This document shows, in pieces, positions 1 to 35,591 of a stretch of 37,980 nucleotides of DNA. The notes under the pieces were generated by a model, which saw nothing but the letters and a program-made list of their open reading frames with translations, did not search any database and was not told the origin of the DNA. The stretch comes from Candidatus Omnitrophota bacterium (GTDB lineage Bacteria > Omnitrophota > Gorgyraeia > JABMRN01 > RBG-13-46-9), in the NCBI GenBank assembly GCA_030605095.1, contig JAUWBJ010000005.1, positions 1-37,980 on the forward strand, in the 5' to 3' direction. Every line of letters begins with the position of its first letter. Position 1 is the stretch's first letter. Position numbers and translations under genes: made by a program.

Positions 1-89
1 AATTTCTATCTTTATCTCCATTTTTATCAAACCACTTATGTTTTTCATTACAATATCTACTTCAATTCTCTTAGGAAGGGCGGGGTTCA
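1..89. repeat. Family C element C1, partial at window edge (after panC)
   Basis: 79/90 identity by eye with C2; GGAAGGGCGGGGTTCA end; 87-89 is the panC stop codon. Confidence 0.88.
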
Positions 90-2551: not shown

Positions 2552-3274
2552 CTACAATCCTAATACATCCGACATCGAAAAGAGACCCTTATTCTTTTTA
2601 GCGACAAATCTCGCTGCTTTTAACGCTCCGAGCGCGAATATATCCCTTGTCTTGGCGCTATGCGAAATCTTTAACGTATCCACTTTGCTTTCAAAGGTTA
2701 TATCGTGGTCTCCGACGATTTCGCCTTCCCGCATGGATTCTATAGGTATATCCGTATCACCGAGTTTTTCTTTAACAATATTTGCCATCAATTTCGCTGT
2801 TCCGCTCGGTTTATCTTTTTTATGAGTATGGTGCGCCTCCTTTATGCTTACGCTATAGTCCTTTCTCAGTGTTTTAGCGACTTTTTCTATAAGGCTGAAA
2901 AACACGTTAACAGCCACTGACATATTCGGAGAAAGGACAATCGGTATAACCTTGGAGGCCTCTTCTATAACAGCCCTCTCTTCACTGGATAAGCCAGTGG
3001 TGCCAATCACCATAGCCTTTTTACGCTCTTTTGCTATCTTAACATGCTCGATTGTTGCCTTCGGGCTCGTAAATTCTATTATACAATCGTATTCGGCTTT
3101 AATTTGATTTAAATCGCTTACGATGTCAACCTCTGAAGCTGTTTCTATACGTGTATTTACGCGTGAAACAGCTTCAACCCCTGCCACAACTTTAAAATCA
3201 GCATCCTTCCGGGCAAGCTCTGTAATTCGCTTCCCCATTCTACCTGATGCGCCGCTAACCACTATTTTTATCAT
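2552..3274 (-). CDS. dapB: 4-hydroxy-tetrahydrodipicolinate reductase, containing an in-frame palindromic insert
   Basis: GASGRMGKRI, IGTTGLSSEE, EAHHTHKKDKPSGTA motifs; residues EAVSRVNTRIETAS are encoded by the palindrome at 3134-3176. Confidence 0.95.
   Translation of the reverse strand: MIKIVVSGASGRMGKRITELARKDADFKVVAGVEAVSRVNTRIETASEVDIVSDLNQIKAEYDCIIEFTSPKATIEHVKIAKERKKAMVIGTTGLSSEERAVIEEASKVIPIVLSPNMSVAVNVFFSLIEKVAKTLRKDYSVSIKEAHHTHKKDKPSGTAKLMANIVKEKLGDTDIPIESMREGEIVGDHDITFESKVDTLKISHSAKTRDIFALGALKAARFVAKKNKGLFSMSDVLGL
3134..3176. repeat. Family B element B3, in frame within dapB
   Basis: tgaagctgtttc tatacgtgtatttacgcgt gaaacagcttca (43 bp), the same arms as the element at 17048-17089. 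Confidence 0.93.
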
Positions 3275-3285
3275 TTTTTTCCTTC

Positions 3286-3361
3286 TGAACCGTTTGCGAT
3301 TTTCCGTTCAACCTGTCCCCCTTGCGGGGACAGGTTGAATTGAAATATCACAAACGGTTCA
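3286..3361. repeat. Family A palindromic element A1 (dapA/dapB junction)
   Basis: 76 bp, TGAACCGTTTG...CAAACGGTTCA; 3359-3361 is the dapA stop codon. Confidence 0.95.
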
Positions 3362-4222: not shown

Positions 4223-5033
4223 AATTTATTCCTCCTTCAAAAACAATATGCGCTCCTCCTTCAAGATAGACATCGTGAAAGCGGTTGAGTTCTTTCCTGA
4301 AATAAACCTTCAAAACATCTTTACTTCTGGTAATGGCGTTGATGGGCTGTTGTGCACCGTTTACTAAATGTGAAATAATAGCTGAGGCGACAACGCCCGT
4401 ACCGCAGGAATGCGTTTCATCTTCAACGCCTCTTTCGTAAGTCCGTAGCGAGATGGTTGATTTATCTATCGGCTTTACAAAATCTGCGTTTGTTCCTTCC
4501 GGTTCAAACAATCTGTGATACCTTATCTTTTTCCCCATTTCTTTGACAGGATAATTCTCTATATTTTCGACAAAGTGGATAACATGCGGAACCCCTGTAT
4601 TCACCGTATGAATATTCATAATTGTTTTTCCGATGCCGATATTCTGCTCGAGTTTAATGTCCCTGGGTGGTGTCATCTTTATCCTGACAACCTTATCTTT
4701 TATCTCCGCTTCTATTATCCCTGAGCCTGTCTCAATCTTAATAGAAGAACCGCACCACTTCTTTTGATAAGCATATAAGGCGCTCGCCCTCGCGCCGTTT
4801 GCGCACATCGTTACTTCCGAGCCGTCAGGGTTAAAAATTCTCATTTTGAAATCTGCCTTTTTAGAATCCTCCAGAACAAGAAGCCCGTCGGCTCCGGCAG
4901 AATATTTTCTCCTCGAGGAGAATCTTGCAAAATCGCCCAAATCGGATACCCTGTCTCTCAGCCTCTTTTCTCTGTTGTCAACGATTATAAAATCGTTTCC
5001 GCTGGCAACGGCCTTTGTGAAATTTACCTTCAT
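4215..5033 (-). CDS. dapF: Diaminopimelate epimerase
   Basis: GNDFIIVDNR, MCANGARASALYAY, ETHSCGTGVVASA motifs. Confidence 0.95.
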   Translation of the reverse strand: MKVNFTKAVASGNDFIIVDNREKRLRDRVSDLGDFARFSSRRKYSAGADGLLVLEDSKKADFKMRIFNPDGSEVTMCANGARASALYAYQKKWCGSSIKIETGSGIIEAEIKDKVVRIKMTPPRDIKLEQNIGIGKTIMNIHTVNTGVPHVIHFVENIENYPVKEMGKKIRYHRLFEPEGTNADFVKPIDKSTISLRTYERGVEDETHSCGTGVVASAIISHLVNGAQQPINAITRSKDVLKVYFRKELNRFHDVYLEGGAHIVFEGGINYV

Positions 5034-5140
5034 CCCGTTACAAATCCTTCCATTTTTTGCTTAATTTTCCAAAATACATATATGCAGACGTCGCCATTAT
5101 AATTATTCCAGATTTGTATATTTAAGATTTGTAACGGGAT
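5032..5140. repeat. Inverted repeat filling the lysA/dapF spacer
   Basis: atcccgttacaaatc (5032-5046) and gatttgtaacgggat (5126-5140) are exact reverse complements. Confidence 0.88.
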
Positions 5141-10152: not shown

Positions 10153-10194
10153 TGAACCAGGTTCATGCGTAAACATACGTATGAACCTGGTTCA
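10153..10194. repeat. Family B element B1 (argB/argD junction)
   Basis: tgaaccaggttcatgcgtaaacatacgtatgaacctggttca; 10192-10194 is the argB stop codon. Confidence 0.95.
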
Positions 10195-12292: not shown

Positions 12293-12334
12293 TGAACCAG
12301 GTTCAGGCGTAAATATGCGTGTGAACCTGGTTCA
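12293..12334. repeat. Family B element B2 (argC/argJ junction)
   Basis: tgaaccaggttcaggcgtaaatatgcgtgtgaacctggttca; 12332-12334 is the argC stop codon. Confidence 0.95.
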
Positions 12335-13348: not shown

Positions 13349-13367
13349 TGGTTCTCTTTCTCCCATT

Positions 13368-13433: not shown

Positions 13434-13463
13434 ACCCAGCCCTTGCGTGCAAGGGCTGGGTTA
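13434..13463. repeat. Perfect GC-rich hairpin after rpsI
   Basis: acccagcccttgcgtgcaagggctgggt is a near-perfect palindrome immediately downstream of the rpsI stop. Confidence 0.7.
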
Positions 13464-17020: not shown

Positions 17021-17121
17021 TGAAGCGTTTGCAATTTTCCGCGTTTTTGAAGCTGTTTCAGGCGTAAATATACGCATGAAACAGCTTCAGAAGAAAAGAA
17101 CGGAAAATTGCAGACGCTTCA
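17021..17121. repeat. Composite element: diverged family A outer arms with a nested family B element (leuB/asd junction)
   Basis: Outer tgaagcgtttgcaattttccg / cggaaaattgcagacgcttca; inner palindrome at 17048-17089; 17119-17121 is the leuB stop codon. Confidence 0.92.
17048..17089. repeat. Family B element nested in the outer palindrome
   Basis: tgaagctgtttc aggcgtaaatatacgcat gaaacagcttca (42 bp). Confidence 0.93.
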
Positions 17122-18649: not shown

Positions 18650-18758
18650 CCCGCCCTTCCTTTTCTTTCAATTCCTATCTTTATCTTTATTTTTATCATA
18701 CTACATATGTTTTTCATTGCGATATTTACTTTAATTCTTTTAGGAAGGGCGGGGTTCA
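18646..18758. repeat. Family C element C2 (leuC/leuD junction)
   Basis: 113 bp; terminal inverted repeats around GGAAGGGCGGGGT; starts directly after the leuC TAG and contains the leuD GTG. Confidence 0.93.
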
Positions 18759-25099: not shown

Positions 25100-26650
25100 T
25101 TATATGGACAGGATGCTGGAGAGGAGGCGTTTTGTATAAGGGTGTTTGGGGGCTCGGTAGATTTGGTCTCGGCCGGCAAGCTCTACGATTTCGCCTTTAT
25201 ACATTACGGCGACGTCATCTGCCATGTATTCTACGACGCGAAGATCGTGAGAAATGAATATATAGGTTAAAGAGAGCTCTTTCTGAAGGTCCTTTAATAA
25301 ATTCAGGAGCTCCAATTGAATTATCACATCCAGGCTCGAAACAGGCTCATCGAGTATGAGAATGCGCGGGTTGACGGCGAGGGCTCTCGCAATTGCAATC
25401 CTCTGCCTCTGTCCCCCTGAAAACTGGTGAGGATATTTTAACCTATCTTTATAATTTAGATGCGCCTTGAAAAGCACATCTCTTAGAACCTTCTCTTTCT
25501 CATCCTTGCTTATACCATGAATGGTAGGGCCTTCCAAAACAATATCCTGCATTTTCATGCGAGGGTCCAGGGAACTATACGGGTCCTGGAATACAATCTG
25601 TATCGATTTTTGTGTCCCCACTGAGCCCGAGTCAGGTTCCAAGAGTCCTATAATAAGTTTTCCCAGCGTTGTCTTGCCCGAGCCTGACTCACCGACCAGG
25701 CCGAGTGTTTTTCCTTCTTTTATTTGCAAACTTATATTACGAACAGCCTGAATTTTCTCTTTTTCTTTTTTAAAAATACCTTTTTCGACTGGAAATGATT
25801 TATTCAGATTTTTAACCGTAATAATACTTTTATGGTTTAAACCTATTTCAGACCTCCTAGGTCTGGAATAGGTTTTTGCCCCCAACGAGGCTGCATCAAG
25901 AAGCTGTTTGGTATAGTCCTGTTTAGGCCGAGAAAGAATCTCGCGCTTTTCACCACCTTCCACAATTTTTCCATCTTTCATAACCAAAACTCTATCCGCA
26001 ACTTTATTGATAATCCCGAAATCATGCGTAATAAAAAGAACGGACATATCTAAATCTTTCTTTAAGCCGAGGATGAGTTCCAGAATCCCGGCCTGAATTG
26101 TAACATCCAACGAAGTTGTGGGTTCGTCTGCGATTAAAAATTTCGGATTTAGCGCAATTGCCATCGCAATCATCGCCCTTTGCCTTTCTCCGCCGGATAG
26201 CATGTGAGGATAGGAGTCATAGATCCTCTCGGGATCGCTGATCTTTACTTTTTCTAAAAGATTTAAGGTTTCGTTCTGAACCGTTTGCGATTTTCCGTTC
26301 AACCTGTACCCCTTGTGGGTACAGGTTGAATTGAAAGATCGCAAACGGTTCACCAGCACTGCCTCGTCAATCTGCTCGCCTACCCGTAAAACAGGATTTA
26401 AAGAGGTGGCGGGCTCCTGAAAGACTATCGCCGGCTTACCCTCGCATATGATCTCGCCACTCTGGAAACAACCTCTTTCCGGGAGAAGTTTCATTATCGA
26501 AAGCGCGGTAACCGTTTTTCCGCTGCCGGATTCCCCCACTAATCCCAGTACTTCATTTTCATTGAGAGCGAAATCAATTCCATCAACAGCTTTCACAACT
26601 TCGTTTTCATGCTTGAAGTGTACTTTTAAGTTTTTTACTGTTAGTAGCAT
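25100..26650 (-). CDS. Fused oligopeptide ABC transporter ATPase (OppD-OppF / YejF type) with two in-frame palindromic inserts
   Basis: Two Walker A (GLVGESGSGKT) and two signature motifs (LSGGERQR, FSGGQRQR); inserts encoded by 26277-26352 and 25839-25875. Confidence 0.93.
   Translation of the reverse strand: MLLTVKNLKVHFKHENEVVKAVDGIDFALNENEVLGLVGESGSGKTVTALSIMKLLPERGCFQSGEIICEGKPAIVFQEPATSLNPVLRVGEQIDEAVLVNRLRSFNSTCTHKGYRLNGKSQTVQNETLNLLEKVKISDPERIYDSYPHMLSGGERQRAMIAMAIALNPKFLIADEPTTSLDVTIQAGILELILGLKKDLDMSVLFITHDFGIINKVADRVLVMKDGKIVEGGEKREILSRPKQDYTKQLLDAASLGAKTYSRPRRSEIGLNHKSIITVKNLNKSFPVEKGIFKKEKEKIQAVRNISLQIKEGKTLGLVGESGSGKTTLGKLIIGLLEPDSGSVGTQKSIQIVFQDPYSSLDPRMKMQDIVLEGPTIHGISKDEKEKVLRDVLFKAHLNYKDRLKYPHQFSGGQRQRIAIARALAVNPRILILDEPVSSLDVIIQLELLNLLKDLQKELSLTYIFISHDLRVVEYMADDVAVMYKGEIVELAGRDQIYRAPKHPYTKRLLSSILSI
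25839..25875. repeat. Family D palindrome, in frame in the OppD-OppF linker
   Basis: aaacctatttcagacctcctaggtctggaataggttt; encodes KTYSRPRRSEIGL. Confidence 0.85.
26277..26352. repeat. Family A element A2, in frame within the OppDF gene
   Basis: 76 bp, 71/76 identical to A1 by eye; translated as [25 protein letters not shown]. Confidence 0.95.
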
Positions 26651-27484: not shown

Positions 27485-27526
27485 TGAACCTGTTTCACAC
27501 GTTTATTTTCGCCTGAAACAGGTTCA
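27485..27526. repeat. Family B element B4 (oppB/oppC junction)
   Basis: tgaacctgtttcacacgtttattttcgcctgaaacaggttca; 27524-27526 is the oppB stop codon. Confidence 0.92.
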
Positions 27527-28510: not shown

Positions 28511-28585
28511 TGAACCGTTTGCGATTTCCCGTTCAACCTGTCCCCCTTACGGGGACAGGTTGAACGGGAAATCGCAAACGGTTCA
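28511..28585. repeat. Family A element A3 (SBP/oppB junction)
   Basis: 75 bp palindrome of family A; 28583-28585 is the SBP stop codon. Confidence 0.95.
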
Positions 28586-30259
28586 GTAGGTATACCTCTG
28601 CTTATTCTTCGGAACCCACCAGTCAATAAAATTATATCCTATTCCGATTGGCGATAGCTCTATGCCCTTGAATCGGCGCTCTACCGCTACTAATGAATCG
28701 GCTATATACAAAAACATATAGGGTTGCTCATCATAAAGGGTTTCGTGAATTTTATGATAAATCTTCTTTCTCTTTTCTCTATCGAATGTCCTCCTGCCCT
28801 CAATGAGAAGCCGGTCGATTTCAGGATTTGTGTAACTTATGAAATTAAATTCACCCGGGCGTGTCTTTGACGAATGAAATATATCGTAACAATCCGGTTC
28901 CCTGCCGAGCCCCCACCCGAGTATTATGGCCTCGAATCTCTTCTTATTTACAAATTCATCTATAAAAACCGACCACTCCAAAATCCTTATGTTTACCTTT
29001 ATGCCTATATCTTTGAGACGGCGTTGTATAATTTCTGCTGTCATTCGGCGACTTTCATTACCCTGGTTTGTGAGTAGCGTAAATTCAAATCGCTTTCCTT
29101 CTTTGTCGAGCCATCCGTCACGGTCTCTATCTTGCCAGCCGGCTTCACTTAGCATAGCCTTTGCTTTTTCAGGGTCAAAGGGGTATGCTCTTACATCCTT
29201 GTTGAAAGCCCACGATTCCGGAACGAACTGGCCTGTCGAGATTCTGCCCTGACCCAATAAAACCCCATCAATTATCTCTTTCTTATCTACGGCGTAGTTT
29301 AATGCCTGGCGGACTCTTTTGTCTATGAATTTATCGTCTTTAAGATTATAAGCCATATAACTATAGCCAAATGAGGGGTATTTAAATTTTTGAAATTTAC
29401 TTTTAAAAAAGGATGCCTCTGTCTGTTTTGTAAATTGTAGCGGCGTAAGGCCCATAGAATCGATTCCCAGGGTTTGTAATTCCAAAAACATTGTTGCGGT
29501 GTCAGGTATTACCCTATAGATATACCTGTCAATATAAGGACGGTGCTCAAAATATTCGTGATTAGACACAAGGTCGATTCTTTCGCCGGTCTTCCATCGC
29601 TTGAATTTGTAAGGGCCTGTGCCGATGGGGCTTCGTCGAAAGTCCGTGGTGAGAAGATTTTCCCCCTTTAAGATATGTTTCGGCATTATCGGCATAATCC
29701 AGCTCGATATACCCGGCGCGAAAGGTTCCCTGTAAATGATCTTTACTGTATAATCGTCCACTACCTCAAGGTGCTTAACCATTTTAAAATCGCCGCTGTA
29801 GGGAGTGGGAACATTTGGGTCTATAATGGACTCGTATGTAAATTTGACGTCTTCTGCCCGGAAAGGATGGCCGTCATGCCACTTAACATTCTTTCTTAAA
29901 TGGAAGACTATTGTCAAACCGTCATCTTCTACATCCCATGATTCTGCCAGGTCGCCTTCGAGTTCAACATCCCTGTTGTACTTGACCAGGCCATTAAAAA
30001 CTAAAAACACTATATAGGAAGATGGGCTATCCGAGGCAAGTATTGGAACGAGGGTGCGGGCATCCCCTATTTGACCGGTTACGAAGGTGCCGCCATATGG
30101 ATGGGGACAGGTCTCATTATCGGTTTTAGTGTCATGAAGAGACCTGTCCCCATATGTGCTTCTCACCGATAAAAAAAATACCACTATTATGGTAAATAGC
30201 GGTATAAAAAAAATTATCTTCCTATTGAGGAAGTTTTTCAGGTTTCGCAAGAGGAACAT
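28583..30259 (-). CDS. Peptide ABC transporter substrate-binding protein (family 5)
   Basis: N-terminal hydrophobic segment; LVKYNRDVELEGDLAESWDVEDDGLTIVFHLRKNVKWHDGHPFRAEDVKFTYE is typical of the family. Confidence 0.93.
   Translation of the reverse strand: MFLLRNLKNFLNRKIIFFIPLFTIIVVFFLSVRSTYGDRSLHDTKTDNETCPHPYGGTFVTGQIGDARTLVPILASDSPSSYIVFLVFNGLVKYNRDVELEGDLAESWDVEDDGLTIVFHLRKNVKWHDGHPFRAEDVKFTYESIIDPNVPTPYSGDFKMVKHLEVVDDYTVKIIYREPFAPGISSWIMPIMPKHILKGENLLTTDFRRSPIGTGPYKFKRWKTGERIDLVSNHEYFEHRPYIDRYIYRVIPDTATMFLELQTLGIDSMGLTPLQFTKQTEASFFKSKFQKFKYPSFGYSYMAYNLKDDKFIDKRVRQALNYAVDKKEIIDGVLLGQGRISTGQFVPESWAFNKDVRAYPFDPEKAKAMLSEAGWQDRDRDGWLDKEGKRFEFTLLTNQGNESRRMTAEIIQRRLKDIGIKVNIRILEWSVFIDEFVNKKRFEAIILGWGLGREPDCYDIFHSSKTRPGEFNFISYTNPEIDRLLIEGRRTFDREKRKKIYHKIHETLYDEQPYMFLYIADSLVAVERRFKGIELSPIGIGYNFIDWWVPKNKQRYTY
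30094..30156. repeat. Family E palindrome, in frame near the N-terminus of the SBP
   Basis: catatggatggggacaggtctc ... gagacctgtccccatatg; encodes YGDRSLHDTKTDNETCPHPYG. Confidence 0.85.
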
Positions 30260-31330: not shown

Positions 31331-31405
31331 TGAACCGTTTGCGATTTTTATTTCAACCTGTCCCCGTAATGGGGACAGGTTGAACGGAAAATCGCAAACG
31401 GTTCA
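31331..31405. repeat. Family A element A4 (pgk/tpiA junction)
   Basis: 75 bp palindrome of family A; 31403-31405 is the pgk stop codon. Confidence 0.95.
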
Positions 31406-32581: not shown

Positions 32582-32690
32582 CCAGCCCTTCCTTCCTTTT
32601 TTATTTCTGTATTTATTTTCATTATCATCATTCACCCGCTCTTCTTTGCACTCTTTGGTGTAATTCTTTTCTTAGGAAGGGCGGGGTCCA
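32578..32690. repeat. Family C element C3 (pgk start)
   Basis: 113 bp; GGAAGGGCGGGGTCCA / GGAAGGGCTGGGTGAA ends; interior diverged; contains the pgk GTG. Confidence 0.85.
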
Positions 32691-32715
32691 TAGAAAAACC
32701 TCCTTCAATAAGACC

Positions 32716-34504: not shown

Positions 34505-35588
<1,084 letters not shown>

Positions 35589-35591
<3 letters not shown>

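Follow-up and report, generated by a model that had tools for sequence, protein, structure and literature searches.

Palindromic repeats in frame in dapB and other genes of a Candidatus Omnitrophota bacterium and its sister species

Introduction

The best-known cases of palindromic repeats that code for protein come from Rickettsia and Wolbachia. The RPEs (Ogata et al. 2000) are dispersed palindromic repeats that lie in frame in conserved housekeeping genes of Rickettsia; they measure 105-146 bp, were described from that genus and have similar counterparts in Wolbachia (PMC2229807, PMC10969869), and the R. conorii guanylate kinase that carries one of them is an active enzyme with an altered substrate affinity (PMC2229807). 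The REPs of the GTAG and CGTC types, which include intragenic copies and are found in several phyla, are palindromes of 20-40 bp with the respective tag at one end; they are mostly intergenic and close to 3' gene ends, although some are in frame, and their ends supply stop codons (Di Nocera et al. 2013, PMC3733652). The RAYT/TIRYT Y1 transposases are their presumed movers, and different REPs occupy about the same place of recB in two Xanthomonas species (PMC3733652).

Here we describe a 43-nt palindrome within dapB of a Candidatus Omnitrophota bacterium, a member of an uncultured phylum unrelated to the hosts named above. The repeat family to which it belongs, designated family B, resembles the RPEs in being palindromic, hairpin-forming, dispersed and in frame in a conserved protein gene (dapB; palindromes of other families in OppD, RmlD and PilM), but it differs from them in the size of the element (42-43 nt) and in its Omnitrophota host, and no RPE model was found among the NCBIfam matches of DapB up to E=1. 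It resembles the REPs in being made of short palindromes, 16 of the 17 listed copies being intergenic or at a gene end, and in that the argB and argC stop codons lie inside elements; unlike REPs, its ends lack a GTAG or CGTC tag. Among the Y1_Tnp loci of this genome and its family relatives none was seen with family-B ends, whereas one in genome G002 has the ends of a second family, D1. At the level of sequence the D1 hairpins, which match the inverted ends of that Y1 locus, are also similar to MITEs and other ends-only Y1 derivatives; no consistent target-site duplication was seen in the strongly diverged spacers, and no parent element was found for family B. Because there are neither REP tags nor a match to an RPE model, these repeats appear to represent the same kind of phenomenon without belonging to those families.

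In-frame palindromes are thus of an already known kind (Rickettsia RPEs, intragenic REPs), and what is new here is the phylum, the families, the two conserved proteins with a same-site exchange of family, and the Y1 transposase bearing D1 ends; a literature search on Omnitrophota and palindromic returned nothing relevant at the title and abstract level. Palindromic repeats appear to add peptides to housekeeping proteins in these bacteria, and to turn over at the same spots. The in-frame inserts in DapB, OppD, RmlD, PilM and DnaX, some of which differ in family between the sister species at identical codons, form a natural series in which the tolerance of such inserts, and a possible targeting of one palindrome by another, can be studied; the Y1 transposase with D1 ends suggests a candidate enzyme.

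Results and Discussion

The window, i.e. the whole stretch of 37,980 nucleotides that was analysed (contig JAUWBJ010000005.1), carries dapB at positions 2552-3274 of the minus strand. The 240-residue product scores 196 bits against TIGR00036, above the cut-off of 122 for this DapB equivalog, and contains both DapB Pfam domains (PF01113 and PF05173); no second copy was found in the 1.37-Mb genome, so that this is the sole dapB found. The initial annotation had claimed a palindrome at 3134-3176 inside the gene, and this was confirmed at exactly these coordinates and in frame. On the minus strand, the 43-nt family-B hairpin consists of 12-bp perfect arms and a 19-nt middle (TGAAGCTGTTTC-19 nt-GAAACAGCTTCA) and encodes residues 34-47, EAVSRVNTRIETAS. 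The codons across the element (GTT GAA GCT GTT TCA CGC GTA AAT ACA CGT ATA GAA ACA GCT TCA GAG GTT GAC) translate as V-E-A-V-S-R-V-N-T-R-I-E-T-A-S-E-V-D, and EAVSRVNTRIETAS comes right after VVAGV, as had also been claimed, in the loop past the second Rossmann strand. Elsewhere in dapB the longest perfect inverted repeat has 7 bp, and an inverted repeat of at least 12 bp appeared in only 1 of 300 codon-shuffled versions of the gene. The palindrome had also been described as nearly the same as that at 17048-17089; the arms of the two are indeed identical, but the dapB copy has 43 nt and the other one 42 nt.

The exact arms of the dapB palindrome occur at 8 places in the genome, against none for a reversed-letter control. 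When genomes were searched with a covariance model built from 11 copies, with 150 candidates scored per genome and counts that are lower bounds, at least 17 copies of family B were detected here, at least 6 in the sister species, at least 3 in genome G007 and at least 1 in G003, and none was among the matches listed in the ten other genomes searched. The arms covary, with 96% of the cells paired and an observed score that was reached by 0 of 500 shuffles; no match to Rfam was obtained within the window. Besides the dapB copy, the window contains 42-nt family-B hairpins in the argB-argD spacer (10153-10194), in the argC-argJ spacer (12293-12334), in the leuB-asd spacer (17048-17089) and, with GAACCTGTTTC arms, in the opp permease spacer (27485-27526). 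The first two supply the stop codons of argB and argC, respectively, in each case the TGA with which the element begins when read on the coding strand, and they occur in both species with arms that are altered yet still complementary: the sister copy at argB-argD shows compensated arm changes, and the sister hairpin at argC-argJ has different arms. The orthologous sister sites of the opp spacer copy and of the copies at C3:287, C5:8562, C107:5009 and C39:7510 are without the element, which indicates that gains or losses of family B at individual sites followed the split of the two species.

Whereas 16 of the 17 listed copies in this genome are intergenic or overlap just a gene end, the dapB copy is the only one lying fully within a gene, and family B therefore appears to survive rarely in genes. 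Among the copies compared, its closest relative is a 43-nt copy of the sister genome (L098), and it is identical to no other. No consistent target-site duplication was observed at family-B copies, whose spacers are strongly diverged between the species; the GTAG/CGTC tag was absent from the ends of 23 copies, and scattered tetramers of these types in their 25-nt flanks were not above chance. The dapB insert is flanked by a possible 9-bp imperfect direct repeat (AGGGGTTGA / AGAGGTTGA), which was not accepted as a target-site duplication, because the residues that it encodes have aligned counterparts in the outgroups and no such repeat accompanies other copies.

Comparison with related proteins showed that the DapB loop is short in five orthologues of the same family from outside the genus (for example GVE-LKANPEEN-IVSDLN after VVAGVE), its length being 8-10 residues in family members outside the genus and variable across orthologues. 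In this genome the loop reads GVE-AVSRVNTRIETAS-EVDIVSDLN, a net gain of 8 residues (about +24 nt). Since the net gain is of just 8 residues, the insertion was apparently accompanied by the loss of about five residues of the ancestral loop (LKANP), a replacement rather than a clean insertion. The claim of an insert stood when orthologues were compared, the refutation test proposed in the initial annotation itself, for none of the aligned Omnitrophota orthologues has these residues. This result bears on the alternative that the insert is an ancestral functional feature, for example an mRNA-regulating hairpin or a cofactor-specificity loop, and not a mobile element. Such a feature would agree with a hairpin that folds well as RNA (-19.7 kcal/mol, z -6.8) and with a loop that follows a strand whose conserved glutamate aligns with the cofactor end of solved DapBs; but the residues are shared by no aligned orthologue, the same sequence family is present at 16 or more other sites, and the dapB hairpin is the least stable among the five family-B copies folded as RNA, all of which makes this alternative very improbable.

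The sister species (CP070780.1, genome G001), which belongs to the same genus, also carries an insert in the DapB loop, of an unrelated sequence. Its loop reads GVELKA-PSPKPSPQRGEGRVRG-MEMTSDLN, and the DNA is a palindrome of a different family (CCCCCTCACCC..CCCTCTCCCC-AAA-GGGGAGAGGG..GGGTGAGGGGG), designated CCCTC, whose core was found as an exact pattern 18 times in the sister genome and once in genome G010, with no occurrence in this genome or in eight other genomes searched. About 14.3 kb around dapB are collinear between the two species at 88-89% identity, and the flanks are conserved close up to the loop, where the sequence is swapped wholesale between well-conserved flanks. The genome is a metagenome-assembled one in 109 contigs, and an assembly or binning artefact at the repeat might be considered; however, these collinear and conserved flanks argue against it, as both are dapB and the collinearity continues over kilobases in both directions, a misjoin at a repeat of 43 nt would not reunite the two parts of dapB, the dapB copy is identical to no other copy compared, and OppD shows the same in-frame pattern (see below). 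We therefore regard an artefact as extremely improbable. In genome G006 (L009) the DapB loop contains a weak inverted repeat, which was examined as a third inserted palindrome and dropped, because its arm is not dispersed (9 matches with up to 2 mismatches versus 17 for the reversed control).

The initial annotation expected dapB to be essential and the insert, consequently, to be tolerated. Essentiality can be presumed from the adjacent diaminopimelate pathway genes. Outside the loop, the comparison of DapB with that of the sister species gave dN 0.067 and dS 0.41 (dN/dS about 0.16, NG86), a ratio by which dapB is under purifying selection, and the sister protein, insert included, likewise still scores as DapB. 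The AlphaFold model (pLDDT 90.7, pTM 0.86) matches solved DapBs with TMq values up to 0.94, and in both species the low-confidence part of the predicted fold is the insert, with a block mean of 59 in this genome. The insert thus looks tolerated, given the sole dapB found, the score of 196 versus 122 bits, the purifying selection and a low-confidence loop in an otherwise confident fold; the claim needs one correction, in that about five loop residues were apparently replaced and the insertion was not a clean one. The region around the insert-bearing loop contacts the cofactor in known DapB structures, and for this reason the NADH/NADPH preference of this DapB might be altered. In the DapBs of family relatives a basic residue is located within two positions after the conserved glutamate (ELK, EIR, EKE, EKV), and in this genome the first basic residue is four positions after it.

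The family is dispersed, the dapB copy is in frame and specific to this lineage, the gene is intact and evolves under purifying selection, and the sister sites of some other copies are free of an element. On these observations we consider it highly probable that the palindrome in dapB belongs to a dispersed set of non-autonomous hairpins of the REP/RPE-like type, one copy of which landed in frame in a tolerant loop, most likely after the split from the sister species. According to this proposal, a family-B copy would have entered dapB, most likely after that split, and come to rest in the exposed, length-variable loop following the second Rossmann strand, where a stop-free frame and a net gain of about 24 nt, a multiple of three, would have given DapB an additional surface peptide with the enzyme predicted still to work. 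An insertion in a gene would survive only under such circumstances, i.e. a stop-free frame, a net length that is a multiple of three and a peptide placed in a tolerant loop, and the DapB insert peptide would itself be neutral. The mover would be a transposase acting in trans, the best candidate being a Y1/HUH enzyme, a role that is supported for D1 and not for family B.

How two unrelated palindromes came to occupy the same loop is a separate question, on which OppD also bears. A 76-nt D1 palindrome lies in frame in the OppD gene (26277-26352, minus strand), where it encodes 26 residues; the corresponding codons of the sister species hold a CCCTC-type palindrome, and in eight outgroups the loop is short, uninterrupted and palindrome-free. 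The two mobile palindromes may have hit the DapB loop by chance after the split, and both may have survived because this loop tolerates any peptide. To such a double hit we assign nearly an even chance: the loop varies in length across orthologues and is predicted to be flexible, the REP insertions at about the same recB site of two Xanthomonas species provide a precedent (PMC3733652), and this genome gave no match to the CCCTC core, which indicates that at least the CCCTC insertion probably postdates the species split. Against it, OppD repeats the same-site coincidence, and at two further sites the species differ in the palindrome or in its core. At one of them, the leuB-asd spacer, the family-B hairpin is nested in D1-type outer arms (TGAAGCGTTTGCAATTTTCCG ... 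CGGAAAATTGCAGACGCTTCA) in a composite at 17021-17121 (inverted repeat 17030-17112), and the sister species has a third palindrome; at the other, the murD 5' site, the D1 outer arms are common to both species and the cores differ. A rough count also expects well under one coincidence. Of the five in-frame sites examined here, two have a CCCTC counterpart that is likewise in frame in the sister species, which makes plain coincidence unlikely when set against perhaps 7 in-frame CCCTC inserts in about 1,200 genes, both figures being estimates, with tolerance uneven across sites and sites that were not blindly chosen.

Alternatively, the presence of a palindrome may make a site prone to a further insertion or to an exchange, which would explain the unrelated palindrome in the same DapB loop of the sister species. 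We put forward tentatively, at somewhat less than an even chance, that palindromes preferentially enter palindrome-occupied sites, in which case the coding site would be inherited and the family exchanged, leaving unrelated peptides in essential proteins of sister species. One route by which elements might replace elements is that an occupied site attracts a nested insertion in its hairpin loop, the older arms being later decayed or deleted with the frame kept; this route, too, falls short of being probable. It is in agreement with the same-site swaps at DapB and OppD, with the nesting of family B in D1 arms at 17021-17121 and also at C76, and with the shared outer arms and differing cores of the murD 5' site. 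Nevertheless, neither of the dapB inserts is surrounded by visible traces of an older palindrome, and the PilM, RmlD and L133 sites are filled in one species and palindrome-free in the other. PilM lacks here 63 nt (21 codons) with respect to the sister species and the RmlD site has no palindrome in the sister species; the DUF6701 site differs by 57 nt.

As to the mover, no transposase with family-B ends was detected among the Y1_Tnp loci of this genome and of family relatives, and the two Y1 genes of this genome (L068 and L069) have neither family-B nor D1 ends. In genome G002, a Y1_Tnp gene (L174, G002:C9:12667-13002; L190) is bounded by inverted ends that match the D1 hairpin arms: TGTACCGTTTGCGATTT on one side and, on the other, the same sequence inverted with the GGGGACAGGTTGAA core arm behind it, 32 of 35 bases matching one half of a D1 element of the window. 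As the ends of this locus match D1, D1 looks like an ends-only derivative, and the Y1 (HUH) transposase locus of G002 is likely to be the parent of the D1 palindromes, as judged from these matches. Two other Y1 transposase genes of G002 (L187 and L188) are flanked by other palindromes (AATAAGTTGACARAATCGG; ACCACCCCAACCTCGTAGGTTGG).

About 16 copies of D1 are present in each of the two species. In the window, a nested D1 palindrome of 75-76 nt occupies the dapA-dapB spacer (3286-3361), with one in the same place in the sister species, and intergenic copies are located at 28511-28585 (35-bp perfect arms), 31331-31405 and 35516-35591. An RmlD-like protein, a glycosyltransferase-9 protein and a BioH/BioC-like fusion also contain D1 copies in frame; the in-frame CCCTC palindromes of the sister species are located in PilM, a DUF6701 protein and DnaX. 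A third palindrome type, with GGGGACAGGTCTC arms, lies in frame near the N-terminus of an oligopeptide-binding protein (30101-30153, minus strand), just past a signal-peptide-like start, and the Opp4A-type match of this protein begins only at residue 69.

Several minor observations concern these repeats. In the BioH/BioC-like case (L139 1210-2775, G000:C56), the D1 palindrome joins a BioH-like hydrolase and a BioC-like methyltransferase in one open frame, and the junction has in the sister species a longer spacer and other palindromes. The glycosyltransferase-9 insert is a D1-type palindrome of greater length, in frame and equally placed in the proteins of both species (L146 1874-1963 and L155 894-983), and the DnaX linker of the sister species (L130 1440-1545, G001) reads several repeats in frame, the CCCTC palindrome included. 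Near the counterpart of position 13366 the sister species carries one additional D1 copy, and it lacks the spacer palindromes found here at 5032-5140 and 13434-13461. Finally, an A/T-rich repeat with a AGGAAGGGCGGGGT end has two or three intergenic occurrences in the window (1-89, 18670-18758 and 32667-32706).
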